From assembly GCA_030144725.1 (NCBI GenBank), contig JASKMD010000028.1:4819521-4883520 (forward strand): a DNA stretch of 64,000 nucleotides, given 5' to 3'. This DNA comes from Haematococcus lacustris (Eukaryota > Chlorophyta > Chlorophyceae > Chlamydomonadales > Haematococcaceae). How positions within the stretch are numbered: the first letter of the stretch is position 1; each line of letters begins with the position of its first letter. The position numbers and the translations under genes are program-made. The notes beneath the pieces were generated by a model. That model was given only the letters and a program-made list of their open reading frames with translations, had not been told where the DNA came from and ran no database searches. Shown piece by piece: positions 1 through 41,625 of the stretch.

Positions 1-169
1 CCCTGCGACACCAAGTGTGCTCACTGCAGCTAGCATCCAGGTCAGTGCTGTGTGTGTCAGCATACTTCATCTGCTGGTAACCTTTCACAACCTCACACTG
101 CAGCAGGGTGCCTAGCAGCCTGGGTACCTGTTGCTGCTGCTGGGTTGACCAGCCAAGCCATCACCACAG

Positions 170-379
170 CCAGGCAGGTGGGTGGGCAGGGACTGCAATG
201 CAGCGCTGTACATGCAGCGCATTGGGGAGAGCAGGTGGCGCCCGCTGGAGCTGTGCTGGTGGCCAAACCTGCCTGAGTTGCCGGCCATGGGCAAGGAGTA
301 CCAAGGCCTGGGATACAAGCGGCTGAAAGAACGGACACCCAAGATCCAGCAACAGCAGCAGCCTATTGCACAGTAATGT
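170..379 (+). pseudogene. Fanzor/TnpB-like nuclease, C-terminal fragment (diverged copy)
   Basis: Open reading frame ending at the TAA at 374-376. It encodes a stretch with GRDCNAAL, which fits the RuvC-III motif (xRDxNAAxN) of TnpB/Fanzor proteins, followed by the family tail GESRWRPLELC and a Gln-rich end. The same tail is encoded on the minus strand at 31582-31770 with many substitutions, so this is a diverged family member. Only about 65 codons remain and there is no upstream nuclease core, so it is a relic. The RuvC-III Asp (the D of RDxN) is kept. The Asp two residues before it is Gly here. Assignment to the Fanzor family rests on motif recognition, not on a search. Confidence 0.55.
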
Positions 380-480
380 ACGCCCTCTTGAGCTGTGTTC
401 AAATTACAATAAGTGTACGTTGTCATGGCAACTCTAGGCTATAGACCTGCCACAAGGGTCAGGCAATAGTGTAGGTGGAA
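377..480 (+). ncRNA. conserved 3' flank of the Fanzor-like ORF (candidate guide-RNA region)
   Basis: The about 100 nt directly after the stop codon match the reverse complement of 31468-31581, which sits directly after the stop of the other Fanzor-like copy. Shared blocks include TTACAATAAG, TTGTCATG, CAACTCTA and GTCAGGCA followed by TAGTGTAGGTGG. Non-coding conservation at this position is what a TnpB/Fanzor omega RNA would show, but transcription is not demonstrated. It could also be a transposon end required for mobilisation. Confidence 0.3.
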
Positions 481-575
481 GGCGCCCATGACATGTGCAT
501 GGGAACATGATTCCAAACATGTGCATGGGAACATGATTCTGGCTTTGCGGGCTGATGAGGGAGGTGCTGACCTAC

Positions 576-1414: not shown

Positions 1415-4400
1415 ATGAGCCAGCCATCAGGCATCCTGCACCAGGGCACTCAGGAGGAGCGGGGCGAGAATGCGCGCTTGGTGGGTTCGGACGGTTCGTG
1501 GCTGCTCAGAGCTGGGCTGAGCGCGCGTAGGACAGCAAAAGCTTCGGGTGATCTGCCCCGGCATGTGCCGCTGATCAAATTAGCCATGTCGTGTGCACTT
1601 GCAGGCAGCCTTCGTGGGGGCGGTTGCCATTGCAGACCTCGTCAAAACCACTCTAGGCCCCAAGGGCATGGTGAGCGCAGCTGATAGCTCTTCAGCACAT
1701 GCATCCCTCGGGGCTGACACTCTGCACAGTGAAGGCGATGGCGAAGCCCAGAACAGCAGCAATATGCGCATGTTCCCTGAGATATCCCAGGTCCTGATAC
1801 ATATGCACAGCTCAACAGCTGGGATGACATGCAGGCCTCCTGAGCCTGGCCCATAACATGTTGAAACAGCAGCACTGTTGCTTGTAAGGCAGAGGGGCTG
1901 TGCTGATGTCATGCAGTGGCGATATGAAGCCATGTAAAGAAGCTTGGCTGGGAACCAATGAAGAGTAACAGAATCAGCATGGTGCCACGGGCATGGCAGC
2001 TCTCATGTCATATGGCCAGCACCTACACAAACACCCACACCCACCACAGCAGCAGCAGCCACAGAAACAGCTGCAGCAGCCACACTGGCAGCAGCAGCGG
2101 CCAGACCGACAGCAGCAGCAGCAGCTGCAGCAGGCACAGGGTGCACTCGCTGCGCCTGCCAAAGGCTTGAAGGGTCCGGCAAGTCCCAGCGCAGCCCTAC
2201 ACAGCGCAGCACCCACACGTTTGCACCAGGAGGCAGTGCCAGTGCTGTAAGGCTGCCACATTCGTGCCAAGCTGGTGATTTTCGAGTCAGCAGCTGTAGT
2301 CAGCCTGCCAGGAGGCAGCCAATGCCAGCGCCCAGCCTATGCCAGCGCCTAGACCAGCACTGCCAGGTCACACCCCAGGTCACACCCCAGGTCACACCCC
2401 TAGGCCCATCCTCACACACACACACACACACACCAGCTTCTCTCCGCTCGGGCTAATGCTGCCATCATAGCACGTCATGACATGCACACATTGCTCTGGC
2501 TGCTGCCCTCTGGCCACTGCCCTTTGGCTGCTGCCCTCTACCTGCTGCCCTCTCTCCACTGTCTTGTCCTGGCAATAGCTGGAGCTGCCAACCCCTCCTC
2601 CAGCACCATTTGCTCCGTGTGCCGGAGCTGCAGTCCCTCCCAGCCCCCACCACATTACCCTCACCATAACCTCACCATACCCTCACGAATGTCAGGTGTG
2701 AGGGTCATGGGTGTTAGGGGTGAGGGTCATAAGTGAGGGCAGAGGCAAGGGAATGAGGGCAGATCTGCTGTTGTGAGGCCATTGCCCCGCCACCCATGGT
2801 GTGTGTGTGTGTGCTGCCCTCCCCGTGTGCCCTTAGGACAAGATCCTGCAGAGCATGAGCCGCAACCATGACATCACCGTCACCAATGACGGGGCCACCA
2901 TCCTGAAGTCCATCTACATTGACAACCCAGCCGCCAAGGTCCTTGTTGGTGGGTGGCCAGGGGGGCTGGGAGCGGAATGCCACTTGGGCAGGGGGCAGGG
3001 GGCGGGATGCTACACGGGCCCTGATGCTACCAGACTGATATGGGCAGGGGGAGCTGGTGGAGGTGCCTGGTGGCAATGGTGCAGGTCCACAGGGTTGATG
3101 CTGCTACACTACAGCTGCTGCCCTACCCCTGGCACTGGCTTGATCTCTGCAGACTGGCTCTGAATAGGTGTGCCAGGGTTGGGGAGGAGGGGGAGTGGGG
3201 AGGGGAGTGGGAGGGGCGCCCCTGCTTGAGGGTCCTCCGAGCCTGCCTCTCCTGTCTATGTCAGGCCTGCTTCACAGATCCATGCGCCCATGCTCCCCTG
3301 GCCCATGCAGACATCAGCAAGGTCCAGGATGACGAGGTGGGGGACGGCACCACCAGCGTGGTGGTGCTGGCGGGGGAGATGCTGCGGGAGGCAGAGCAGC
3401 TGGTCAACGCCAAGATCCACCCCATGACCATCATTGCAGGTGCAGCCATGCTAGTAGTAGCAGCCTACTGAACTGCTGGTAGTGGCCACTGCCATGTTAG
3501 CCACAAGCTCGCAGCAGCAGGTAGCTGGGCAGAGGAAGCAGCTGGGTGCTAGCTGGGCAGTAGCTGGGCAGTAGCTGGGCAGTAGCTGGGCGGTGAGTGC
3601 AGCTCATCAGCACCTGGAGCATTATGAAATGACTGTGCCTCTCAGCCCAGCACGACTCCCCTGTTCTCCCTTGCAGTCAACCTGCCGTTGTGGGGAAGTG
3701 TGACTCCCTACTGACCTGACCTTGTCCAATCTGTTAGCCTAATTGTTAGTCAGCCAGCTGACAGGACTATAGCATGGCTCCATGCTGCATGCTCCATGCC
3801 TGCCTGGCTACAGGGTTCAGGGAGGCGGCAGAGGCAGCGAGGGACGTGCTCATCTCATCTGCCTTCAACAACGTGGCTGACCCCACTCGCTTCCGTGAGG
3901 TAGGGCAGGAGGAGGGAAGACCCCTGACCCCTGCTGTGTGCTGTGTGCCCACCATCCTCCACGTCGCCACCCCTCACCCTCCATGGCTCCTACGCACGCG
4001 CCAGGCACCCCAGCCTTCACCTTCACCTGCTGTCCTTACGATTGCTGCTAGACTTCTGGGCTGACAGACAGGCTCCATTACATGGATTAGGGGGATGGAA
4101 AGGAAAGACACCCCACCCCACCCCACCCCACCCCACCCCACCCCACCCCACCCCACCCCACCCCACCCCACCCCACCCCACCCCACCCCACCCCACCCCA
4201 CCCCACCCCACCCCACCCCACCCCACCCCACCCCACCCCACCCCACCCCACCCCACCCCACCCCACCCCACCCCACCCCACCCCACCCCACCCCACCCCA
4301 CCCCACCCCACCCCACCCCACCCCACCCCACCCCACCCCACCCCACCCCACCCCACCCCACCCCACCCCACCCCACCCCACCCCACCCCACCCCACCCCA

Positions 4401-7400
4401 CCCCACCCCACCCCACCCCACCCCACCCCACCCCACCCCACCCCACCCCACCCCACCCCACCCCACCCCACCCCACCCCACCCCACCCCACCCCACCCCA
4501 CCCCACTGCCCTCCAGCTTAACCCACCGACTACACACTGCACCATGCCCCCCAGCCTGCAGCACCCCCAGCTGTTGTCTGTAGGATTTGATGAACATCGC
4601 CCGCACCACCCTTAGCAGCAAGATTCTGACGGGCGACAAGCAGCACTTTGCCAACCTGGCTGTGGATGCCATTATGCGCCTTAAGGGTGGGTGGGTGGCT
4701 GGGTGGCTGGGTGGCTGGGTGGCTGGCTGGGTGTGCACAGGCCCCATGCTGCATTGCCCGAGCCTATGGCCATCCAGCCACAAGGGATGCCTGGCTGAGT
4801 AGGAAACGGCACGGGCACTTGTTGCCCTGATCAAGGGAATACCCCAGTGCCTAGCCTGTTGATCAGTGGGAAAGAAGGGGAATAACATGGTGAGTTATGA
4901 AAAGTTGACGTGCAGCTGGGTAGTTGGTTTGTCTCTTTGTTGAGTTGCAATGATGAGGATGGAGACTGGTTGCATGCAGGCAGCGGGAACCTGGAGGCTA
5001 TCCACATCATCAAGAAAACTGGCGGCACCCTGTACGAAAGCTACCTAGATGAAGGATTCATCCTGGACAAGAAGATCGGGGTGGGCCAGGTGAGGCCGGG
5101 TAGGTGGCTGCGCTGGCTGGGCAGTAGGCTGGGCAGAAAGCTGGGCAGTGTCCCTGTTCAGCTGTTGCCAGCGTGGTGGCTGTCCCTTTCATCGCCAGCA
5201 TCTCCGTGCTTGCAACATTGCGTAACAGTTGAGGTGCATGCATGTGTCACACATGCTTGAGTGCTTTTGTCACAGACCTACTCTGATGCGACCCCTGCCT
5301 CTTCCTAACCTGCACAGCCATGTGATCAATGGCTCATGTGGCTCATGTGGCCCAAGCCAGCCTCCCCAGTGCTGCCTGATGCTCCTGATGTTCCTGAGCA
5401 CACCTGATGCCCCTGAGCAGTCCTCTCCTCACGCTCCTGAGCACACCTCCACCCCACCCACACCTACGACCTGCAACCTCCACCAGCGGGTGCTTGGCTC
5501 CGTGTCAGTGAACTATGACTCATCACGCCTCGTTGGCTTGCCGGTTGTGTCCAAGCCAGCTCCAGGGGTGCCCCAGGGACCCACCTTGAAGGCTAACACC
5601 CCTGACTGGCCCCAAGGGATAATAACCCTCCACCTCATCACACGCATCCTCTTCGTGCTTCTGGGGTGTGTGCCTGTGTGTATGCGTGCCTGTGGCTGGC
5701 TGGCCTGTCCTAGCCTTTCCCAGCGCGGCTCCTGACTGCACCCCTACGCAACACATGGCAGCACTTGCTTCGTCTGTTGGCCTTGCCCCCACAGCCCAAG
5801 CGCATTGAGAATGCCAGGATCCTGGTGGCCAACACCGCCATGGACGCAGACAAGATCAAGATCTACGGCGCTAGAGTGCGCGCTGACAACATGACCAAGG
5901 TCTGGCACCTGGCTCCTCAGGCTGATAGCCAGGGCGGGCTAGGACAGCCTAAAGTGCTAAGGGCTACTCAGAGTGGTGCAGAGAGAGGGTGGGCAGGACA
6001 GGCTCGGCCGCTGTGGCAGCTGCTGACGCAGCTAACCCAGCTGGTCCTCATGATGGTCCTGATGATCCTGGCCTGGGCACCAGCACCTTGACCATGGTTA
6101 CAAGGCTGCTGGTATGTGTGTGATGGGTTTCATCAGGCTTTGGGTGCTTACCTTTGGGTGTTGACAAAGCAAGGCTGCTGATCACGGAGCTTGTGGTGTC
6201 TGTTTTTCCTTCAGCGTGCAAGGCTGATGGGCTGATGCTGTTCAGGGCTGTGTCCTCGCCGGGCACAGGTCGCTCCCCAAGCTACGTCCACCGCACCCTC
6301 TGCCTGTGCTCCATGTGCTGCATGTGCTGCCTAGGGACATGCATGCTGGCATGATAGAATCTTTGCATGCTTGCATGAGCACAGGTGGCTGACATTGAGG
6401 CGGCAGAAAAGCAGAAGATGCGTGCCAAGTGTGAGCGCATCATCTCCAGCGGCATCAACTGCTTCATCAACCGTCAGCTCATCTACAACTTCCCAGAGGA
6501 GATCTTTGCCGATGCTGGGGTCATGGCCATAGGTGGGCAAACTATAATGGGGAATGGGAGGAGGCCCAGTGCATGAGGGGGAGCATCCAGACCTGTGCTG
6601 CCTGGCATAGGCTGCCAGGTGTGTCGGTTGTGGGTTGTCAGTTGTCAGTTGTTGGTTGTCGGTTCCCAATGCTGCTTGTTTATACCTGTCAGGTGTATGT
6701 CACACAGTGAGCCATGCTCACACTAAAGAGCGTGTGATGTCACCCCTCTCATGCAGAACATGCTGACTTTGACGGGATAGAGAACCTGGCGCTGGTGCTG
6801 GGCGGTGAGATCACCTCCACCTTTGACGAGCCTGACAAGCTGAAGCTGGGCAGCTGCAAGCTCATAGAGGAGATCATGATTGGGGAGGACCGACTCATTC
6901 ACTTCTCAGGTACTTAGGGAAGGGGCTCCTCTATGGGTACGTCTCAGGCTGCAGGTTGAGGAATGGGTGGCACCTAGACTTAGATCTCACCCGACAGTGG
7001 ATGACAGCATGAGTAGGGTTGCGTGAGTGGTTGATTGAATAAGTGTAGGATGGAGCTGAGATAGTACAGGCAAAAGGGTCAGCCCCATGACTGTGCAGGC
7101 ACCAAAACTCTGGTGCAGGCTGGTGGCACATGCGCCCTCACATGGCATTCACAGCATGGCAAAGCAGCAGGGGAGGAGCAGGGGCAGCCCATAGTGCGCA
7201 ACCATGCACTTCTCAAGCTGCATGCAAACATAAACAATGACTAGGGCAGTGGGCCCGTCCCACATCGGACGGGCAGCAGGCAACATATGTATGTGCGGCC
7301 TCCATTTCTTTAACAACCAGCCCGATAGACAGCCGTTTAAGCAAGCCCGCATGCAGCCAAACAAAAGTATGCACGTTCAAGTTATGCAACGTCAGGTCAT

Positions 7401-29492: not shown

Positions 29493-31204
29493 CCGTGGAC
29501 AACACCTGATGCAAACTCCTGCCCTGCTCAGCCTGGCCCCTGCAGTTCCATCAGTCTGTTCCCGCAGCGAGCGGCGTTGGGGCCAACTGCCTAAGCCTGT
29601 TGCACATGCTCATCATGGACAACATCCAATGCAAGCCCCAACTGTGTGTGGGTACTTGCCCTGGACACAATGCCAGCACAAACCCCACCACCACACACGG
29701 CCTGCTGCTACCAGGCAAGCATGCAGGCAAGCATGCAGGCAAGCATGCAGGCAGGCAAGCTGTATTGCAGCATTGTCTTGGTGGCTGTAGCGCCTACTGA
29801 AGAGCTGTAGCGCAGCAACCATGGCATGCTGGAGGTCTTGCGGGCCCTTTGCCATGCTGGTCAGCTGCTCCTGCCAGAGAAGGCGTCAGGGGCATCACCA
29901 TCCCCTATGACTTAGCCGGGGCTGTGTTGCCTGGTCACCTGCCTGGCTCCCTCACCCTCACGAGGTGATAGTTGCTGGCAAGGTGTGGCTCATGTCAGCA
30001 GCCCAGTGCAGGGTGCCATGCTGCCAGGTATTATGAATCACATGCTGTCACTTGTCATGGTCAAGATGCTAGCTAAGGTTCCAATAGTAAGTGTAGGTCA
30101 GCAGTTCAAGCCGATGCCAGCATGCATCACACGCATGGGTTAGCCATGACGATCGTCTTCTCCAGACATGCCCAGTCTGCTTAGCTGCTTGTGACCAAGG
30201 AGATGGCACAGCCTGACAAGCAAACGGCTGTGTGGCAGGGGCAGGGCATATGGCAGGGCTGATGCAGCCTATTTTAAGCGCGGCCGGCAGAGGAGTACAT
30301 GGACGGCTTGTGTGCTGTGTGGCAGGGGCAGGGCATATTGAGTGGAAGGTAACACCAGCCGCACACAGTCCACTCTTGTCCCATGTGATGCTCCCACACA
30401 CCCAATGCCCCTCCCTGCCTTCTGCTGCGCCCAGCCTGCTCCAGTGACACTGGCCCCTGCCGCAACCCGCTGTGATGCACGAGGCCACCACCCACTGGGG
30501 CCCCTGCCCTGCTGAGCCTGGCACACTGTGGCGCCCCTGGCCTTTCCAATCAGAGTCCCCGCAGCGAGCAGCCCTGGGACCATTGCCCAGGACTGTGGCA
30601 CATACTTATGCTGTGGTTGCCAGCTACAGGCTGCTTGGTCAGCGTGTACAATGTCAATGCATCACGATTGGTAGGAAGTGCCAGGGTCATTCGATTGGTA
30701 GGCCTCGCTCAGGGCTGAGGGTCAGGCACATGATAGCACATGATAGCACCAAGCATACCAGAATTAAAACCAGGCATACACATCTTTTGGATACTGTGGG
30801 CAGGGAACGGTGATGATTGACATCGTGGTTCAGACTTGACTCTAATACTGTGTCCAAGGATATGACCTGCACAGTCCACTAGAACCTAGCCAGGGCTATG
30901 TTGTTAGATAGGTATCTCATGGGCAAATATTCGTCGGCATGAATCACATGCTTGCACGTAAAAACAGTTTAACAAACAGATTTGCGGCTGTATTTCAGCA
31001 GTGAAGCTTTGAGAGGGTCTAGCAGCTTGACATGGGGTTGTAGGCCTAGACTGCACCTTGTTGTCCATGCCTGCATACTCCATGTCTGTGGCAGGCAGCA
31101 CTGGCCGCCAGGGCGCCAGCACAGGTTGTCTCAGCACACTGCATGTTGAAAGCTGCATTGTAGCCCTGGCCTAATCACTCATGGCCTAGTCGCTAAATGT
31201 TGTC
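29493..31204. other. intergenic region with low-copy repeats, no gene seen
   Basis: No convincing exon. 30309-30485 is repeated at 35221-35371 inside a redoxin intron (shared text: GGCAGGGGCAGGGCAT, CACTGGCCCCTGCCGCAACC). 29520-29640 and 30495-30615 are imperfect copies of each other around CCCTGCT.AGCCTGG and CCCGCAGCGAGC. GCAAGCATGCAG units lie in tandem at about 29715-29755. Confidence 0.6.
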
Positions 31205-31581
31205 CTGACAGCCCCCTCGTCCCTCACTAGGGCCTCCATTTGAGCCGGACCAGTAGTGGCCACTAGCGCCCACTAACGGGAATACTAGGGATCACTAGTG
31301 GCCCGACTCAGATGGTGTTAATGGGCTGTGTGGACCCCATCTGAGTCGACTGTGTGTACCCGGTGCACATGGACATGGTGCATGAGTGCCTACCACATGT
31401 GACAAACGCTATCGAAAAAGGTGCAGTATTGAGTGAGTATGTGCATGAAGATTACCAACCCCATGTTGGGGACACCTGACTACCACCTACACTACTGCCT
31501 GACCGCGAGGGCTATTGTGTAGAGTTGGCATGACAAACTTACGCTTATTGTAAGCTGATAACAGCTCAAATGGGGGGCACA
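31205..31581 (-). repeat. conserved 3' non-coding block of the Fanzor-like element (copy A)
   Basis: Lies directly downstream (minus strand) of the Fanzor-like ORF stop. It recurs as solo copies at 34250-34470 and 37243-37480. A strong hairpin spans 31236-31315: the inner arms GGCCACTAG and CTAGTGGCC are perfect complements, and the outer arms CCATTTGAGC and ACTCAGATGG pair with one wobble and one mismatch. Copy A has about 90 extra nt near 31400-31485 compared with the solo copies. It is a candidate guide-RNA locus or element end. Confidence 0.6.
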
Positions 31582-32863
31582 CTACTGTGCCACAGCAGGC
31601 TGCTGCTGCTGCTCCTGGGCCTTTGATGGCTTGTCTTGCAGCTGCTTGTAGCCCAGGCCATGGTACTCCTTGCCCTTGGCTGGCAGAGCTTCCTGCTCAG
31701 GCCAGTAGCACAGCTCCAGCGGGCGCCACCTGCTCTCCCCAATGCGCTGCATGTTCAGCGCTGCAATGCAGTCCCTGTCCAGCCACCTGCCTGGCTGTGG
31801 GGCTGGCTTGGCTTTGGCAGCCTTGCCCTTGCCTTTGCCCTTGCCCTCAATGGGCTGGGTGGGCTCAGCTGCCGGCTCAGCCTTGGTGCGCTTGTTGCGC
31901 TTGGCTGGCAGGGGAGTGCTGGGCCCTGGCTCTGAGGCTGCTGGCTGTGTGGCTGCCTGGCTGCTGCGTGGGGCCTGTGGTGGCTTGCGAGGGGGCACTA
32001 CTGGGCACCACATCAGGCCCTGCACTGGCTAGTCACGCTGCTGGCTCCATGCTGGGCGCACCAGGCGCTGTTCCACCTGCCCTGTTGGTGGCTTCCAGCC
32101 TGCAGGTCTTGTGGCACTGAGTGTGTTCAGCTCCACCTCACAGGGCTGCTTGCCATTCACTGCTGAGCTGACCTGGGTGGTGCAGTGCTCATCCACGAGC
32201 ACCACCCTGCCCCGCCGCTGGCCTTCGCCCCTGGGCCTGCACACCACCTTGCAGCAAGCACGCAACACCGCATCAGCACCCCACCCTCCCCCAGTGCCAA
32301 TGTTAGCTGCACCAAAGAACACCACCAGCTGCTTGGCATGCCCATGGCGCTCCATGGACACCTCCGCCGGATCCTCTTCCAACTGCAGCCATGCACACAA
32401 GGCACACACATGGTGGCTGATATGGTGGCACCAGGTTAGGCATGGCACAGTCAACTACCTTTTCACGTTATGCCTAACCCACCACCTCCCAGTCCCTTAC
32501 CCTCCCTCCCTCCCACCCTCCCTCACCTTCTTGAAGAACTGCTCCAGCGCCCAGTCCTGGGCTCCGTACAGCCGCAGCCGCTGCTGTGCCCACTTGGGGT
32601 CCAGGTACACCTCCCACACCGCATCCCAGGTGGCCAGGGTGACAGTGATGTGCTTCAGGTTGGCCTCCAGGGAGGTGCCGGCTGAGCTTGCTGCTGCCAG
32701 GTGCTGGTGGGGCTTGATTGGTGCTAGCCACCGCTCAGTGTTACGGCGGGCATTGTTCAGGCCGCTGGCATGCTTCACCTGGCCCTTGGTCAGCTTCCAT
32801 TGGCCCTTGGTCAGCTTTCCCGGGTCCTTCTTGTGCTTGTCCCTTCCGCTTCTTCTTAGCCAT
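31582..32863 (-). pseudogene. Fanzor/TnpB-like RNA-guided nuclease gene, decayed copy
   Basis: Two exons can be read: 32863-32527 and 32382-31582, with a 144-nt GT-AG intron. Parts in order: a basic N-terminus MAKKKRKG resembling a nuclear localisation signal; WEVYLDPKWAQQRLRLYGAQ, like the helical part between RuvC-I and RuvC-II; KQLVVFFGAANIG; VVLVDEHCTTQVSS, fitting the RuvC-II Glu (family: VDExRTS); a Lys-rich linker; DRDCIAALN, fitting RuvC-III. Damage: a 1-nt frameshift shortly after the start codon, no recognisable RuvC-I Asp segment (apparently deleted), and a TAG at 32029-32031 where a sense codon is expected before GLMWC. The protein would therefore be inactive. Family call is from motif order (E...DRDxxAAxN with the zinc-ribbon-like GLMWC between) and needs a profile search. 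Confidence 0.65.
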
Positions 32864-33039
32864 CACGCTGAGTCGGGCGGTGGCCTATTAAGGCAACTTG
32901 GGATTCCCAAATACATGCTACATGAAAATACACGCTACATTCCAGCCAGATCACGGCCTTCTTGTACAATGCCGAGCAGAACCCTCCAGCCTTGAGTAAC
33001 GGACTTGAAGCAGGGCCTGGCACGGCCCTGCCTAATGCC

Positions 33040-33255
33040 GGCGTTGTCCTGACAGCCTTGCCCTTGGTGGGCTGCTTTTTTTTGCTTCTTCTTCTTCTTC
33101 CTGAGCTCAGCTACCTGCTCTGCCTTAGCGCACTTGGCTGGCGGGGATGCTGGGCCTCACCTCTGAAGCTGCTGGCTCTGCAGCTGGTTTGCAGCAGCAC
33201 CTTTGAGCTCCGGCTTGTCATGCTGCTGGCTCACCCATGCTACTGTAGTTGAGAG
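33040..33255 (-). pseudogene. diverged Fanzor-like linker fragment
   Basis: The plus-strand text from 33120 (GCGCACTTGGCTGGCGGG...) and the following Leu/Gln-rich segment resemble 31880-31970, the Lys/Ala-rich linker region of the neighbouring Fanzor-like copy. The minus-strand peptide holds a run of Lys residues followed by Gln-rich text. Highly diverged and short. Confidence 0.35.
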
Positions 33256-33299
33256 TGGAGTGGCCATTAGTGCCTGCCACAGGGCGACCATAGCCTCCT

Positions 33300-33700
33300 T
33301 GCAAGGCTTGTGAAACCATGCAGGTCGACAGGAATACACGAAGAAGTGGGAGCCAGCAGCCGTAGCAGTAGTGGGAGCGCTTATCAAGAAAGTATGGGCT
33401 GGGTATGGGGTGGGGCCGGGTGAGGAGTGGGCAGGCCAGGTGGGTGGTGCTTGTTGCAGCAAAAGTTGGGGTTGGAGAGAGTTTTGAAGGTGGTGGATGT
33501 GTAAGGAGCCTCGGGACTCAACCCTGCCCATGTGCCGCGCAGTTCCTAGAGGAGGCTGAGGCCCTCTCCACGCAGTGCTACGAATGTGTGAAGCAGGTGG
33601 TGATCTTCTTTGGCAAGGCTGGCATTGGCCCCCGGGGTGGTCGACTGCAACTGACAGCACCGAAACCTGTGATCGCAGAAGCGGTTCTTACAGCATACTG
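33300..33700 (+). pseudogene. diverged Fanzor-like core fragment on the opposite strand
   Basis: Plus-strand exons can be read at about 33318-33391 (EYTKKWEPAAVAVVGALIKK) and 33541-33640 after a GCGCAG acceptor (FLEEAEALSTQ, then KQVVIFFGKAGIGPRGG). The second matches KQLVVFFGAANIG of the minus-strand copy, followed by the same Gly-rich turn. It then runs into unrelated sequence. It is therefore a second family member, head-to-head with 31582-32863 and truncated. Confidence 0.45.
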
Positions 33701-33820: not shown

Positions 33821-35870
33821 ATGGTGATTGGAACTCCATGTCCACCCATCGGGGGCCTCACGTTCATCAAAGGCGCGCCTTTCGCCGTCCCCGGCCCCCC
33901 AGGCCACGGTCGAGTGTTGGTCCTCGAGTTCTGGGCGACCTGGTGCGGGCCGTGCGTTCAGACGGTTCCTGTAAGTAGCACGATGTGATGCACCCGCTCC
34001 GTCGTCGTATCAGCGCAGGAACATACACACACTGTTTACACATCCTTGTCCCTTGCTTGTTCGCCTGTTGCAGCATCTCACTGAACTCCAGCATGCCTAC
34101 AGAGAGCGAGGGGTGACGGTGTTGGGAATCAGCACAGAGAACAATGTGCAAGTAAGCCTGATGCCGCCTGCACCCACACCGCACTCTGCCCAGATGCAAA
34201 TCCATCCGCTTTAGTGCACCATCCGCATTGGTGCACAACCCATCCGCATGAGCAGCCCCCTTGTCCCTCACTACGCCCTCCATTTGAGCTGGACCAGCAG
34301 TGGCCACTAGCGGGAATACTAGGGACCACTAGTGGCCTGACTCAGATGGTGTCAATGGGCTGTGTGGGGTATACCCTGTGCACATGGACATGGTGCATGA
34401 GTGCCTACCACCTACACTACTGCCTGACTGCGAGGGCTACTGTGTAGAGTTGGCATGAAAAACATGCGCTGGGCCTTGGGTGGCTTGTCTTGCAGCCGCT
34501 TGTAGCCCAGTGTAGTCGGCTAGGGACACACACCTTTCGGTTTCTTTGTCGGGCCCTTCTTTTGCTTGGCGCTGCCCTTTCGCTTCTACTTAGCCATTAC
34601 GCAATGTACTTTGAGACGGTCGTATGCCTTCTCTAGCAACTTGGGTTTCCCGGGTAATTGATGGAGTGATGTCACATGTAGAGACCAGCACAAAGTTCTA
34701 TGCAGCTTCTGCCAAGCCTTGGGTAGACTCTCCATGTGCTGCTATGTGCTGCTGATGCCAGTCTGACTCATTTGACTTTCTGTTCATTTGAGTTTTTGTC
34801 CGCATTAGCAGCCAAGGCTCATCACATGCATGACGGTCGTATATCTGCAGCCGTGTGCAGGCCAGTTGTCCTCCCTAACACGATGTATTATGTGTTCAGG
34901 CAGCTTCATTGTCACCATGCCTTGCCCATTCCCTAACAAAACATAACATTAAGAGCACATGCTACATGGTGCTCCCATCCGCGGCCATTGCAATGCAGAA
35001 AGTTCGGCAGTTTGTGGACAGCAAGGGCTCGACTATGGACTACACTGTAGCTGTCGACCTTGGCGGGGAAGCCACCGAAGGTCAGCCTGGCGAAGTGTAA
35101 CCAAGCCCACCACCATTTCTACTCGAGACCTCAGTTCATGACACACAGCAGCGGACAATGGAGCTGGCCAGCAAGCGGGCTGCCGCTTCATGCCGCTAGG
35201 CAGTTCCGGTCACAAGCACTTGTGGCAGGGGCAGGGCATACTGACCGCAAGGTAGCACCAGCCACACATGGTCCATTCTTGTCCCATCTAGTGCTCCCTC
35301 CCTGCCCTCTGCTGCGCCAAGCTTGCTTCAGCGGCACTGGCCCCTGCCGCAACCTGCGGTGATGCAGGATGCCAAGCCTGTGCCATGGGCCCCTCCTCAC
35401 CAGCTTGCAAGGCTGTCCCTGCTGCCGACAACCACACCTCACACAGGCAGCAAATCCCAACATGCAGGCTGTGACAAGCACTCAACATGGTTGTGGGCTG
35501 CTGTGTGCCTCTTTTTGTTGTGTCAGGTCTGTTGCGTGCTGCTGGTGCGAGAGGCATCCCCCACGCCTTCATCGTGGACGCATCAAACACCATCCGCTAC
35601 TCCGGCCATCCCATGGACCCCACCTTTCAAACAGCACTGCAGCAGGCCGTGGCCACTGCTGGTTCGGCTAGCTCAGGTGTTGGGCCAAATCCTGGTGGTG
35701 AGGCCCTGCCCCTCATATTCGCCAGTTTTGAGGAGTTGATGGGTATGAGCGTGAAGGAATTGAAGGGGCTACTGGCGGAACGGGGGATCAGCATGGCAGG
35801 TGCAGCAGAGAAAGCTGACCTTGCACGGCTGGTGCAGGAGCAGGCTAGCAAGGTGCAGTACTATAAATGA
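33821..35870 (+). CDS. TlpA/ResA-like redoxin with C-terminal SAP-like helix pair
   Basis: Predicted thiol-disulfide oxidoreductase with a thioredoxin fold. Exons: 33821-33970, 34074-34151, 34999-35080, 35527-35870 (654 nt, 217 aa). The start gives MVIGTPCPPIGGLTFIKG, the usual opening of TlpA-type redoxins. The active site is WCGPC (41-45), then VTVLGISTENN, and GIPHAF (113-118) holds the cis-Pro loop. After a Gly/Pro linker, the last 40 residues contain SVKELKGLLAERGISMAG and KADLARLV (about 178-205). This resembles the SAP-like helical domain seen at the C-terminus of MANF/CDNF and a few algal proteins. No transit or signal peptide is evident, so cytosol or nucleus is likely. Intron 2 holds a Fanzor-derived insertion and intron 3 a dispersed repeat. 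Confidence 0.82.
34250..34470 (-). repeat. conserved non-coding block of the Fanzor-like element (copy B) in redoxin intron 2
   Basis: Matches 31209-31545 and 37243-37480. The hairpin is kept at 34280-34349 with a 10-nt shorter loop. Substitutions are spread through the copy, so it is older than copies A and C. Confidence 0.75.
34471..34725 (-). mobile_element. internally deleted Fanzor-like derivative in redoxin intron 2
   Basis: About 30 nt matching the C-terminal coding end (GGCTTGTCTTGCAG, cf. 31630) are followed, after a short gap, by the reverse complement of the N-terminal coding end (start codon at 34595-34597, MAK then an in-frame stop, then KRKG) and by the 5' flank GAGTGATGTCACATGTAGAG also seen at 27212. 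Nearly all coding sequence is missing. Together with copy B upstream, the insertion spans about 34250-34725. Confidence 0.6.
35221..35371. repeat. dispersed repeat, second copy of 30309-30485
   Basis: Lies in redoxin intron 3. Shares several blocks of 12-20 identical bases in the same order with 30309-30485. Class unknown. Confidence 0.65.
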
Positions 35871-36055: not shown

Positions 36056-36775
36056 ATGTTGGCCGCTTCACGCCTCCCCACATCGCAGCGCGCCTTCTCT
36101 ACCACAAGCCGGCGCAGCTGTGTCCTGGTTCAGGCCAAGGTGTTGTGTCGCTGGACAGCCCGTCTGTATAATGGCTGTGCTGGCCTCATCTGTGCATCGC
36201 CATTTGCCCGCAGTTCAGCTATGCACCCCTTGTCGATGCGATAGGCAAGGAGATGATGAAGAAGGACATTCCCAAGGTCAAGGTTGGTGACACCGTGAAG
36301 GCTAACGTGGCGGTGGTGGAAGGCAAGGGTAAAACCCGGACGCAAAAGCTGGAGGGCACGATTATCGCAGAACACGGAGCCGGCATCAACAAGACGGTGT
36401 GTGCGAAGGCATATTTGAGTTTGCATACTGCTGTTGCGGCAGAGTTAATAATGGGATGCCCTGTGCAAATGCATGGCGTGCCTGCAGGTCACCTTCCGAC
36501 GAGTTTTCCAGGGCATTGGCATCGAGCTTATCATGCCCCTTCACAGCCCAGCTTTGCAGGGCTTTGAGCATGTGCGCACAGGGCGGGTGCGCCGCGCTAA
36601 ACTCTACTTCTTGCGCAGCCGTGTGGGCAAAGCTGCGAAGTTGAAGGAAGTGATTGTCAAGCGCGCAGCCAAGGTGCCCAAGGCAGCAGCGCCTAAGGCA
36701 GCAGCGCCTGAGGCAGCAGCACCTGAGGTAGCACCAGCTGCGACAGAGGCAGTGCCAGCAGAGCAGAAGGCATGA
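36056..36775 (+). CDS. PRPL19: plastid 50S ribosomal protein L19 (bL19c)
   Basis: Nucleus-encoded component of the plastid large ribosomal subunit. Exons: 36056-36139, 36214-36396, 36488-36775 (555 nt, 184 aa). The first exon encodes a Ser/Arg-rich transit peptide ending CVLVQA. The mature part shows the L19 pattern: [51 protein letters not shown] and the signature [12 protein letters not shown], followed by [10 protein letters not shown]. After the conserved domain there is an Ala/Pro/Lys/Glu tail of about 35 residues with three repeats of [10 protein letters not shown] type, which is not part of the bacterial protein. A TGTAA poly(A)-type signal lies at 36855-36859. Confidence 0.95.
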
Positions 36776-36859: not shown

Positions 36860-37242
36860 TGCAGAGGGCTGCATGCATTGCTGTTGTGTGACCGGGTACA
36901 CCTGTGTGGATGTGTTGTGACTCCAGCGCACCCACATATGCATGCGATATCTGGCAGGCTTTTCAGATGTGGGCACCCTTCACAGTCATGTAACCAGGAC
37001 TGATGGCAGTCAGCCTTCAGTGGGTTGTTTTACACCAAAGGCCATCAGTCATTAGAGCCTGCGCTCTTACCGGACCTTGCTGTAATGCACATTTCTGTAT
37101 GTATGAAGATATGTGCACTGTTACACGGTGGGCTACAGTACCTTTCCAGGAAATCTGGCAGGCATAGTGTACCTCACAGAAGGTCGTGTCTTGCCTAACT
37201 TCCTTGTGTCTCCTGCCATGTGTTCTGCATGTGCGGCCAAGC

Positions 37243-37480
37243 AGCCCCCTTGTCCCTCACTAGGGCCTCCATTTGAGCCGGACCAGTAGTGGCCACTAGC
37301 GTCCACTAACGGGAATACTAGGGATCACTAGTGGCCCGACTCAGATGGTGTTAATGGGCTGTGTGGGGTATACCCAATGGACATGGTGCATGAGTGCCTG
37401 CCACCTTCACTATTGCCTGACCGCGAGGGCTATTGTGTAGAATTGGCATGACAAACATACGCTTATTGTAAGCTGACTAG
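37243..37480 (-). repeat. conserved non-coding block of the Fanzor-like element (solo copy C)
   Basis: Almost identical to copy A (31209-31545) except for the internal stretch missing near the middle, and it ends at the same point, GCTTATTGTAAGCTGA. The hairpin is at 37269-37348 (80 nt). No coding remnant is attached, so the block seems able to exist alone. Confidence 0.75.
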
Positions 37481-37486
37481 TACAGC

Positions 37487-37510
37487 GGGCCCGTCCGACA
37501 GCGGACGGGG
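37487..37510. repeat. GC-rich inverted repeat CCCGTCCG/CGGACGGG
   Basis: An 8-bp perfect stem with a 4-nt loop, 7 bp past the end of copy C. A very similar stem (CCCGTCC/GGACGGG with the same GGGCCC lead) lies at 7251-7273 in CCT2 intron 10. Confidence 0.5.
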
Positions 37511-37852
37511 CAGACGGACCTCCGGCCACAATGCTCTTGCACCAGTCCTTGCACCAGCTCTTGCACCAGGCCACAGTGCTGAGCGCTGAGTCTAACTGCT
37601 GGATGTGTGAGTTTGAGTGCTGAGTCTGAGTAAGTCAGTCAGGGCCAGCAGGCTATGCAGCAAACACCTCACTGTACACAACATAACCTGTAGGGTTGGC
37701 CTAAAGCGTATGCGGCGACTATAATGATGGTAGATACGTATGTATATACTGTATGCATAGGTCCGTAGGGCGAACCGTAGGTGCAAGGTCATCATTCTGC
37801 AAAAGTGAGTATGTAGGCAAAAGTGAGTATGCACAACAACCATAATAACTCC

Positions 37853-40455
37853 CACCCTGCTGCTGCCCTACCCTGCCCGGCTGCCCTGCTGCTGCCCTAC
37901 CCTGCCCGGCTGCCCTGCTGCTGCCCTACCCTGACCGGCTGCCCTGATGCCCTGCTGCGCTGCTGCTGTCCTACCCTGATGGCTGCCCAGCTGCCCTGCT
38001 GCTGCCCTACCCTGACCGGCTGCCTGGCTTCCCTGCTGCTGCCCTACCCTGACCGGCTGCCCTGCTGCCCTGCTCCTACCCTACCCTGTCCGGCTGCCGT
38101 GCTGCTGCCCCACCCTGACCGGCTGCCCTGCTCCTATCCTACCCTGTCCAGCTGCCCTGCTGCTGCCCTGCCCTGCCCGGCTGCCCTGCTGCTGCCCTAC
38201 CCTGACCGGCTGCGCTGCTGCAGCCCTACCCTGACCGGCTGCCCTGATGCCCTGCTGCTGCCCTACCCTGACCGGCTGCCTGGCTTCCCTGCTGCTGCCC
38301 TACCCTGACCGGCTGACCTGCTGCCCTGCTGCTGCCCTGCTCCTACCCTACCCTGTCCGGCTGCCGTGCTGCTGCCCCACCCTGACCGGCTGCCCTGCTC
38401 CTATCCTACCCTGTCCGGCTGCCCTGCTGCTGCCCTACCCTGACCGGCTGCCCTGATGCCGTGCTGCGCTGCTGCTGCCCTACCCTGATGGCTGCCCGGC
38501 TGCCCTGCTGCTGCCCTACCCTGCCCTGCTGCCCTGCTGCTGCCCTACCCTGACCGGCTGCCCTGATGCCCTGCTGCTGCCCTACCCTGACCGGCTGCCT
38601 GGCTTCCCTGCTGCTGCCCTACCCTGACCGGCTGCCCTGCTGCCCTGCTGCTGCCCTGCTCCTACCCTACCCTGACCGGCTGCCGTGCTGCTGCCCCACC
38701 CTGACCGGCTGCCCTGCTCCTATCCTACCCTGTCCGGCTGCCCTGCTGCTGCCCTACCCTGACCGGCTGCCCTGATGCCGTGCTGCGCTGCTGCTGCCCT
38801 ACCCTGATGGCTGCCCGGCTGCCCTGCTGCTGCCCTACCCTGACCGGCTGCCCTGATGCCCTGCTGCTGCCCTACCCTGCCCAGCTGCTGCCCTACCCTG
38901 ACTTGCTGCCCTGCTGCTGCCCTACCCGGACCGGCATCCCGGCTGCCCTGCTGCTGCCCTACCCGGACCGGCATCCCGGCTGCCCTGCTGCTGCCCTACC
39001 CTGACCGGCTGCCTTGATGCCGTGCTGCGCTGCTGCTGCCCTACCCTGATGGCTGCCCAGCTGCCCTGCTGCTGCCCTACCCTGACCGGCTGCCTGGCTT
39101 CCCTGCTGCTGCCCTACCCTGACCGGCTGCCCTGCTCCTACCCTACCCTGTCCGGCTGCCGTGCTGCTGCCCCACCCTGACCGGCTGCCCTGCTCCTATC
39201 CTACCCTGTCCAGCTGCCCTGCTGCTGCCCTGCCCTGCCCGGCTGCCCTGCTGCTGCCCTACCCTGACCGGCTGCGCTGCTGCAGCCCTACCCTGACCGG
39301 CTGCCCTGATGCCCTGCTGCTGCCCTACCCTGACCGGCTGCCTGGCTTCCCTGCTGCTGCCCTACCCTGACCGGCTGCCCTGCTGCTGCCCTGCTCCTAC
39401 CCTACCCTGTCCGGCTGCCGTGCTGCTGCCCCACCCTGACCGGCTGCCCTGCTCCTATCCTACCCTGTCTGGCTGCGCTGCTGCTGCCCTACCCTGACCG
39501 GCTGCCCTGATGCCCTGCTGCGCTGCTGCTGCCCTACCCTGATGGCTGCCCGGCTGCCCTGCTGCTGCCCTACCCTGACCGGCTGCGCTGCTGCAGCCCT
39601 ACCCTGACCGGCTGCCCTGATGCCCTGCTGCTGCCCTACCCTGACCGGCTGCCTGGCTTCCCTGCTGCTGCCCTACCCTGACCGGCTGCCCTGCTGCCCT
39701 GCTGCTGCCCTGCTCCTACCCTACCCTGTCCGGCTGCCGTGCTGCTGCCCCACCCTGACCGGCTGCCCTGCTCCTATCCTACCCTGTCTGGCTGCGCTGC
39801 TGCTGCCCTACCCTGACCGGTTGCCCTGATGCCCTGCTGCGCTGCTGCTGCCCTACCCTGATGGCTGCCCGGCTGCCCGGCTGCTGACCTACTCTGCCCG
39901 GCTGCCCTGCAACTGCCCTACCCTGTCCGGCTGCCCTGCTGCTGCCCTACCCTGACCGGCTGCCCTGCTGCTGCCCTACCCTGACCGGCTGCGCTGCTGC
40001 AGCCCTACCCTGACCGGCTGCCCTGATGCCCTACTGCTGCCCTGCTCCTACCCTACCCTGTTCGGCTGCCGTGCTGCTGCCCCACCCTGACCGGCTGCCC
40101 TGCTCCTATCCTACCCTGTCTGGCTGCGCTGCTGCTGCCCTACCCTGACCGGCTGCCCTGATGCCCTGCTGCGCTGCTGCTGCCCTACCCTGATGGCTGC
40201 CCGGCTGCCCGGCTGCTGACCTACTCTGCCCGGCTGCCCTGCAACTGCCCTGCCCTGCCCGGCTGCCCTGCTGCTGCCCGACCCTGACCGGCTGCCCTGA
40301 TGCCCTGCTGCTGCCCTACCCTGCCCAGCTGCTGCCCTACCCTGACTTGCTGCCCTGCTGCTGCCCTACACGGACCGGCATCCCGGCTGCCCTGCTGCTG
40401 CCCTACCCTGATGGCTGCCCGGCTGCCCTGCTGCTGCCCTACCCTGACCGGCTGC
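37853..40455. repeat. satellite array, about 29-bp unit with higher-order organisation
   Basis: About 2.6 kb of tandem variants of CTGCTGCCCTACCCTGACCGG. Marker variants such as GGCTGCCTGGCTTCCCTGC recur near 38020, 38278, 38597, 39090, 39340 and 39650, spacing roughly 250, 320 and 490 bp. The array has therefore been expanded in multi-unit blocks. It is open in several frames over long distances because the unit lacks stops. These are not genes. Confidence 0.95.
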
Positions 40456-41136
40456 CCGTCCGCCATGTCCGGGTCTCGTCGCCACATTCCTCGTATGCAT
40501 CATTAGGTGGTTCCCGTGCAATGACTGTCATGGCTGGCTGGCTGCATATCGCAGCGACTTGCATTTGACCCGCGGTTACGGACACACCGCAGTTACGGTG
40601 AATTGTGCGCCCTGCATGCTTTGCACTATCACGGTCAAACCTTTGGTATTCGGGGTACGCTACGTATACCCTGTGTACAAAGCCCCATCGTTACAGCGTG
40701 GCCTGGCACGGCTTGAAGGCCAGCTGCAATCATCCAGCCTACTTGTCGCAATGCCCTGTTAGAGCGGCACGGAGGAGGGTCGCATGAGGAGGCTATTGGA
40801 GCTGGCTACGCAGTGACTCGTCAGCAGCCGCAGCCAAATGTGGCCGCAGCCATCGTTGGACTTGACTCGTTTGACTTTTGGCTGTGAACCGTTTGACTTT
40901 AGACCGTCCGCTGACTTTGAACTATCTCTGCGCTGGCTGCATCGCCATCGTTTGCTGAGCCAGGTTCGCTGGTAGCTACTATTTGTGGGGCATTAGAACC
41001 GCAGATCGGAAGTCGATCTCACGGCACAGTGCATCTTTCGCGATTCTGTGCGGAGGGAGTCCTTACATAATTATTGCGAGGCTGTGCGCGCAATCGCAGG
41101 CCGTTCCGCCGACCCCCCCCCCTAGCAGTTTTAATA
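40456..41136. other. intergenic region, nothing recognised
   Basis: About 680 nt between the satellite and the next transposon remnant. No exon or repeat array was recognised. Confidence 0.6.
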
Positions 41137-41475
41137 GTATAGATAACAGCTCAAATGGGGGGCACACTACTGTGCCAAAGCAGGCTGCTGCTGCTGCTCC
41201 TGGGCCTTTGATGGCTTGTCTTGCAGCTGCTTGTAGCCCAGGCCATGGTACTCCTTGCCCTTGGCTGGCAGAGCTTCCTGCTCAGGCCAGTAGCACAGCT
41301 CCAGCGGGCGCCACCTGCTCTCCCCAGTGCGCTGCATGTTCAGCGCTGCATCGCAGTCCCTTTCCTGCCCTTCCGCTTCTTCTCAGCCATCACGCGATGA
41401 GCATTAAGGCGGGCGGTGGCTTTTTCAAGCAGGTAGGGGGTTTCCCGAACTACTGATGGAGTGATGAAGGGGCGT
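41137..41475 (-). mobile_element. internally deleted Fanzor-like derivative (C-terminus joined to N-terminus)
   Basis: 41150-41355 is nearly identical to 31562-31775 (stop codon, Gln-rich end, GESRWRPLELC region up to MQR). At about 41358 it switches directly to the N-terminal coding end (Lys/Arg-rich, start codon at 41389-41391) and then to the 5' flank. The whole nuclease middle is gone. It is therefore a non-autonomous deletion product of the same family. Confidence 0.75.
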
Positions 41476-41625
41476 GCACAGAGAACAATGTGCAAGTAAG
41501 CCTGATGCCGCCTACACCTACACTGCACTCTGCCTCTCTGTCTGTGTACTTTGAGTCCAGGCAGCTTCATCGTCACCATGCCTTGCCCTTCGTGCCCTGT
41601 GTGCGGCCAAGCAGCCTAACGGCTT
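41476..41625. repeat. captured copy of redoxin exon 2 end and intron sequence
   Basis: 41476-41535 repeats 34135-34195: the last codons of redoxin exon 2, its donor site and the first intron bases (ACAGAGAACAATGTGCAAG and on). 41560-41590 repeats 34898-34925 (CAGGCAGCTTCAT.GTCACCATG). Both source pieces flank the Fanzor-derived insertion in the redoxin gene. Confidence 0.7.

Follow-up and report, generated by a model that had tools for sequence, protein, structure and literature searches.

The locus

A 64,000-nt stretch of the Haematococcus lacustris (also H. pluvialis) genome (contig positions 4819521-4883520; hereafter the window) carries on its minus strand a mobile element copy with a putative Fanzor-derived gene (Table 1). 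This copy is dead: a deletion has joined the normal protein start to an exon further downstream and removed the RuvC-I motif. A sequence-only reading had described most of it (31205-32863 of 31209-33042) as a broken two-exon, Fanzor-like gene with a linked non-coding block. The motifs and the breakage (frameshift, TAG at 32029, missing RuvC-I) are real and lie at the positions given there, but the two-exon structure is not native, since this copy is an internal-deletion derivative of a gene for ~890 amino acids from which ~530 residues present in the fuller relatives, RuvC-I included, have gone. The linked non-coding block proved to be the 3' end of the element (31209-31581). As the deposited protein P0008 (QJQ45_002867; P and L numbers denote our proteins and genomic loci) shares variants of the window copy and also carries an N-terminal peptide from the window open frame 33157-33687, it seems to represent this very copy among the deposited gene models.

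Three further copies lie in the window (151-503, 34253-34798 and 37242-41599). Where the sequence-only reading counted at least six other family pieces, we find these three copies, seen as several BLAST blocks. Within the third copy, between the 3' block and the coding end, is a large minisatellite (37855-40458; 29/37/58-bp units), and some genomic copies (L037, L038, L047 and L049) contain a repeat array that has grown to many units within the element.

Table 1. Features of the element copies in the window (TSD, target-site duplication; NLS, nuclear localization signal)
Feature	Position	Strand	Basis or remark
Main element copy: dead, internally deleted, putatively Fanzor-derived	31209..33042	-	TSD pair and conserved 3' end GGGGGCTG
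5' TSD GGCTGTCAGGACAAC (minus-strand reading)	33043..33057	.	Exact 15-bp repeat
3' TSD; GGCTG part overlaps element 3' end	31199..31213	.	Exact 15-bp repeat
MAKKKRKG, normal protein start, NLS-like	32840..32863	-	Frame differs from downstream exon in window copy
First exon of window copy: start joined to KLTKGQ..EQFFKK	32527..32863	-	Comparison with fuller relatives
Intron GT..AG	32383..32526	-	Read from sequence; matching gap in genomic relatives too
Last exon: RuvC-II, TNB-like region, Lys/Pro-rich insert, RuvC-III, C-terminal tail	31582..32382	-	
VVFFGAA	32305..32325	-	
RuvC-II/TNB motif VDEHCTT, candidate catalytic Glu	32176..32196	-	VDEH is the dominant form in relatives
In-frame TAG	32029..32031	-	
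GLMWCP	32002..32019	-	
Pro/Ala- and Lys-rich insert, GLMWCP to RuvC-III	31786..32001	-	Subfamily B lacks the insert
RuvC-III WLDRDCIAALNM	31750..31785	-	
Stop codon	31582..31584	-	
3' non-coding block: candidate omega-RNA scaffold and 3' end for mobility	31209..31581	-	
Second copy, internally deleted to an extreme degree, with 5' leader and start joined to C-terminal tail and 3' block	34253..34798	-	
TSDs of second copy	34243-34257 and 34799-34813		15 bp, 1 mismatch
Third copy, split by ~3.7-kb insert holding the minisatellite	37242..41599	-	Appears as several BLAST blocks
TSDs of third copy	37230-37246 and 41600-41616		17 bp, exact
Fourth copy, degenerate: C-terminal coding end and start of 3' block	151..503	+	

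Element ends, target duplications and the 3' block

New here are a near-constant 3' end, ragged 5' ends, and duplications of 13-18 bp that mostly begin with GGCTG, like the element's own 3' end. The 3' end (GGGGGCTG) follows a conserved structured block of ~370 nt, the tail reading ...GAGGGACAAGGGGGCTG; in 20 long copies it is GGCCCTAGTGAGGGACAAGGGGGCTG or a near-variant followed by unique DNA, with L041 differing in the last bases. A 24-base pattern of this end, allowing at most two mismatches, occurs at 4,268 places in the 308-Mb assembly and its reversed control at none. The 5' ends lie ~65-205 bases ahead of the ATG in some copies and within the coding sequence in others. The sequence-only suggestion of many genomic copies is borne out, some of them having long open frames. 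L001 was considered as a spliced retrocopy and rejected, its uninterrupted match being an internal deletion.

Direct repeats of at least 13 bp starting from the GGCTG position were found in 13 of 23 copies, compared with 8 of 138 shifted control scans. Among 55 3' ends (sets of 35 and 20, the added ends drawn from the pattern search irrespective of coding content, and including a likely duplicate as L104 and L106 are the same in the results) there were 19 duplications, flanking elements of 89-4380 bp; by a post hoc count, 16 begin with GGCTG and 16 are immediately preceded by A or T. Left out of the 19 were L041 and L026 (not of the GGCTG type, or tandem), L043 (11 bp) and L098 (12 bp). The remaining ends represent older or unclear sites, copies whose 5' end lies beyond the fetched DNA, or sites with no duplication; in the second set similarity ended within the fetched 1.5 kb in 13 of 20 copies, five of which had a duplication of at least 12 bp. 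At L032, L034 and L040 the 5' duplication reads GACTG or GCCTG instead of the element's GGCTG, and because of this one-base difference the 3' GGCTG is read as copied from the element. Near the 3' end of L026 the tail of the element is itself tandemly duplicated.

The last ~180 nt of the 3' block share a fold in 16 copies: the terminal GGGCTG is paired to a CAGCCC further upstream, and G-U pairs abound in a long stem; a small hairpin (CCCT-AGTG-AGGG) lies in the tail, twelve bases from the end. In the consensus fold 96.3% of cells were paired, against 35-43% when it was slid, and the fold did better than shuffle controls in cells paired, two-sided cells and covariation score, though in neither the number of pairs nor the pair types. 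As the consensus structure was derived from the same related sequences, we regard this as moderate evidence for a shared fold. Such a fold would suit an omega-RNA scaffold placed directly against variable flanks, and just as well a 3' end required for mobility. An Rfam search returned nothing but one sub-threshold match.

A protein family with split RuvC motifs

In a protein search 1221 database proteins matched a read-through version of the window copy at E<=1e-3, a number that excludes a chance match; the 120 best matches listed are all from H. lacustris. The fuller relatives, of ~890 residues (P0153, 889; P0155, 888), start MAKKKRKG or MAKKKHKK and have ~530 extra residues, including GIDPG, before the KLT segment. 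They derive from an intron-containing gene with an NLS-like start, an acidic and Pro-rich stretch, and split RuvC motifs bearing D, E and D (RuvC-I GIDPG, RuvC-II VDE, RuvC-III DRD). The NLS-like start noted at the locus is also found in the fuller copy P0153 and, at the DNA level, in L033 and other loci. When 220 proteins were searched by pattern, 131 matched at RuvC-I: 127 with the Asp (GIDPG in 119), three with another residue at that position and one out of register. The Asp that the window copy lacks is kept in 127 of 130 in-register matches; many of the 89 proteins without a match are partial or chimeric gene models. The dominant forms among the 220 are VDEH-RT[ST]RVSS at RuvC-II and W[LV]DRDCNAALNM at RuvC-III.

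A second subfamily, B (P0282, P0283 and P0287), carries GLDPG, VDEFRTSRVSS and VDRDCNAALN. It also includes the N-terminus of P0142 and lacks the Lys/Pro insert of the window's subfamily, A. The two subfamilies are ~54-63% identical, with the three motifs in the same order and, in P0283 and P0287, a D-to-E spacing of 185 residues equal to that of subfamily A. This motif order is also that of SpuFz1 and GtFz1. From the Cys of WC to the Asp of RD there are 68 residues in A and 18 in B (measured in P0283 and P0287), a difference due to the insert; the long Lys-rich insertion between RuvC-II and RuvC-III described at the locus is thus real and specific to one subfamily. The tail of P0261 (GLMCLTSNGIRFYDRDVSAPLNI) may represent a third lineage. 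The description of GLMWC as a zinc-ribbon-like piece did not hold up. In both subfamilies the first CxxC of the C4 finger is absent, replaced by VSSAVN (RVSSAVNG or near-variants) in A and mostly by RVSSILNS or RVSSAMNS in B, and a single Cys (WCP) is left.

No stop codon was found over 507-521 codons in 20 of 20 genomic copies, and the median omega (ratio of non-synonymous to synonymous substitution rates) among these copies, whose selection by protein similarity biases them to intact ones, was 0.37 for 164 pairs with a synonymous divergence (dS) of 0.1-0.2 and 0.39 for 24 pairs with dS 0.05-0.1. Open frames and omega together point to selection on the protein in the source lineages.

With regard to the Fanzor motif of Bao and Jurka, the RuvC-I Asp is present (GIDPG in A, GLDPG in B) and D-X(125,275)-[TS][TS] fits P0155 (Asp 513 to Thr 701, then [ST]). 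The C4 zinc finger after TSxx is absent from both subfamilies, so that the RD, although present, has no finger from which its 5-50 residues could be counted. Profile tests gave weak results: PF07282 exceeded its cut-off in four of 18 relatives scanned (P0142, P0221, P0222 and P0223), partly by summing weak stretches, was sub-threshold or absent in the other 14, and was not found in the three window pieces, for which the Pfam scan gave only an unrelated sub-threshold match. Alignment by hhalign to a TnpB profile, built from E. coli InsQ and its viral relatives, was not significant and covered the RuvC-I stretch alone; PDB sequence searches with P0012, A1 and A7 returned no Fanzor or TnpB, and no relatives turned up when viral_contigs was scanned with A1. 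AlphaFold2 confidence was low (predicted local distance difference test scores of 31.6 with 30 family members and 46 for the RuvC core of subfamily B), and in a Foldseek search with a low-confidence model ranks 1-4 of 350,542 chains were SpuFz, none of them significant (E 0.054-0.41).

The suggested Fanzor affinity is supported chiefly by the order and spacing of the motifs, a small number of PF07282 matches and the low-confidence fold search. Weak or absent profile scores are what an unrelated algal repeat protein with motifs resembling Fanzor by chance would give, yet we hold this to be very improbable in view of the same motif order and D-to-E spacing in two diverged subfamilies, the PF07282 matches and the four Fanzor chains heading the fold search. 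As the defining C4 finger is absent in both subfamilies, we call the family Fanzor-derived and not proven Fanzor, and infer that the protein is a Fanzor1-derived predicted nuclease that has lost its zinc ligands. Published sections on SpuFz1, which has a CCCC finger, and on most Fz1 proteins, of 600-700 residues (PMC10432273, PMC11423790), describe proteins unlike this family, with its ~890 residues, Lys/Pro insert and lack of a C4 finger.

Spread of the element and its closest known systems

The explanation that we prefer, and consider probable, combines a Fanzor1-derived, zinc-less protein with target-primed reverse transcription in trans and a 3' block of possible dual role. The marks of target-primed reverse transcription, namely a constant 3' end, truncated 5' ends and duplications of variable length, are all present, and with the 3' microhomology they make insertion resemble that process. 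DNA copying of transcripts would start from the RNA 3' end, its GGCUG annealing to the CAGCC-3' terminus of a nicked target; since no reverse transcriptase or transposase was seen in the element, the copying enzyme would be supplied in trans. The 3' block may double as an omega-RNA scaffold, read-through transcripts carrying the flanking DNA as guide, and any insertion might thereby direct cutting of the allele that lacks it. Several points weigh against this proposal: the end pattern alone is also compatible with one-ended Helitron transposition; the intron is kept in all matches listed, none of which spans the residue-362 intron; and no partner enzyme is known, although RVT_1 domains are abundant in the genome.

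A tentative alternative is that the element is a non-autonomous Helitron2 with a Fanzor1-like gene, for which rolling-circle copying from the 3' hairpin, often ending early, would produce copies truncated at the 5' end and duplications of varying length. In 2013 Bao and Jurka (PMC3627910) proposed one-ended Helitron2 transposition for the Chlamydomonas reinhardtii elements CRe-1, CRe-2 and CRe-3, leaving open the role of Fanzor1 in their difference from other Helitrons. Those elements are described with 5' truncation, internal deletions, intact 3' ends, TSDs of 7-19 bp and extra 5' sequence, and the H. lacustris element is likewise green-algal, with a multi-exon Fanzor1-type gene, a preserved 3' end, truncated 5' ends along with internal deletions, TSDs of variable length and extra sequence after the 5' TSD. 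The hairpin in the tail and the intron kept in copies among the matches listed, as DNA copying predicts, would also suit a Helitron, and the genome holds 18 RepHel-domain matches, seven of them at 155 bits or more. At two of these seven (L117 and L118), however, the 5.5 kb downstream contains no element 3' tail and there is no significant similarity to the element (best E 0.033); as a difference from CRe-1, 2 and 3, no shared ends were found with these two local Helitrons. Targets are mostly A/T-GGCTG and not the TTTT of the CRe elements, the 3' end overlaps the target, and the 3' fold is rich in G-U pairs, which form better in RNA than in DNA. Also unlike the CRe families, for which 35 to 150 loci each are given (PMC3627910), there are thousands of 3' ends. 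On balance, target-primed reverse transcription is favoured over the Helitron model.

It is rather unlikely that the protein has ceased to be a guided nuclease and that the zinc-less descendant acts as an RNA-binding or chaperone factor aiding the copying of its own RNA, like ORF1p in HAL1, an analogy drawn by Bao and Jurka for the red-alga element CMe-1A (PMC3627910). Loss of all zinc ligands but one in both subfamilies, the basic Lys-rich insert, and purifying selection with cis-linked amplification would be consistent with this role, but the three acidic RuvC motifs dominate in the subfamily A proteins that reach them and are present in B, as if catalysis matters. Within the preferred scheme of reverse transcription in trans, we think it highly unlikely that the zinc-less Fanzor is itself active in insertion, binding the structured 3' RNA, with its terminal GGGCUG held by the upstream CAGCCC, opening A/T-GGCTG and supplying the nick where the RNA 3' end would anneal for reverse transcription by a partner enzyme; if so, a Fanzor would serve as a retroelement endonuclease, joining OMEGA systems to target-primed reverse transcription.

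Other likenesses are by description only, from the sections consulted. Like MCi-2 and CMe-1A (PMC3627910), the element is unclassified and lacks terminal inverted repeats. MCi-2 similarly has fuzzy 5' ends and a constant 3' part, but its TSDs are of 11-12 bp and, unlike those here, follow ATAATTNNNN(N), and it has 11 copies; CMe-1A has ~150 copies of ~3 kb, with TSDs that were undeterminable there. In Auxenochlorella, another green alga, the most abundant repeat encodes a Fanzor and is called uncharacterised (PMC12633428). Open-licence PMC articles on Fanzor and Haematococcus, in the portions consulted, name Haematococcus solely in connection with ploidy and in a cited reference, although supplementary Fanzor catalogues may list it, and titles and abstract openings on Fanzor and retrotransposons contained no such element.

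Thousands of Fanzor-derived 3' ends in a 308-Mb genome would provide a natural set of near-identical scaffolds beside different candidate guides, and the loss of zinc ligands with retention of the RuvC triad in both subfamilies would offer a test case for the need of the TNB finger. As 3'-anchored, TSD-flanked insertion recurs in a second green alga at another target, the 2013 question on the role of Fanzor becomes directly testable. Given 1221 matching proteins and a published H. pluvialis gene set of 30,575 genes (PMC10400597), unmasked fragments of the element may make up a few percent of that set. Some deposited gene models that match the element (P0035, P0077, P0234 and P0236 among them) contain Pfam domains of host type as well, such as kinase and dehydrogenase, so the public H. 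lacustris set may hold chimeric models.

Elsewhere in the window, exons at 36200-36775 (+) look, by eye and with no profile search made, like plastid-type ribosomal protein L19. A second repeat pair, 78% identical, lies outside the element copies (30318-30487 and 35221-35374), and a perfect (CACCC)n array of ~80 units occupies 4109-4506.
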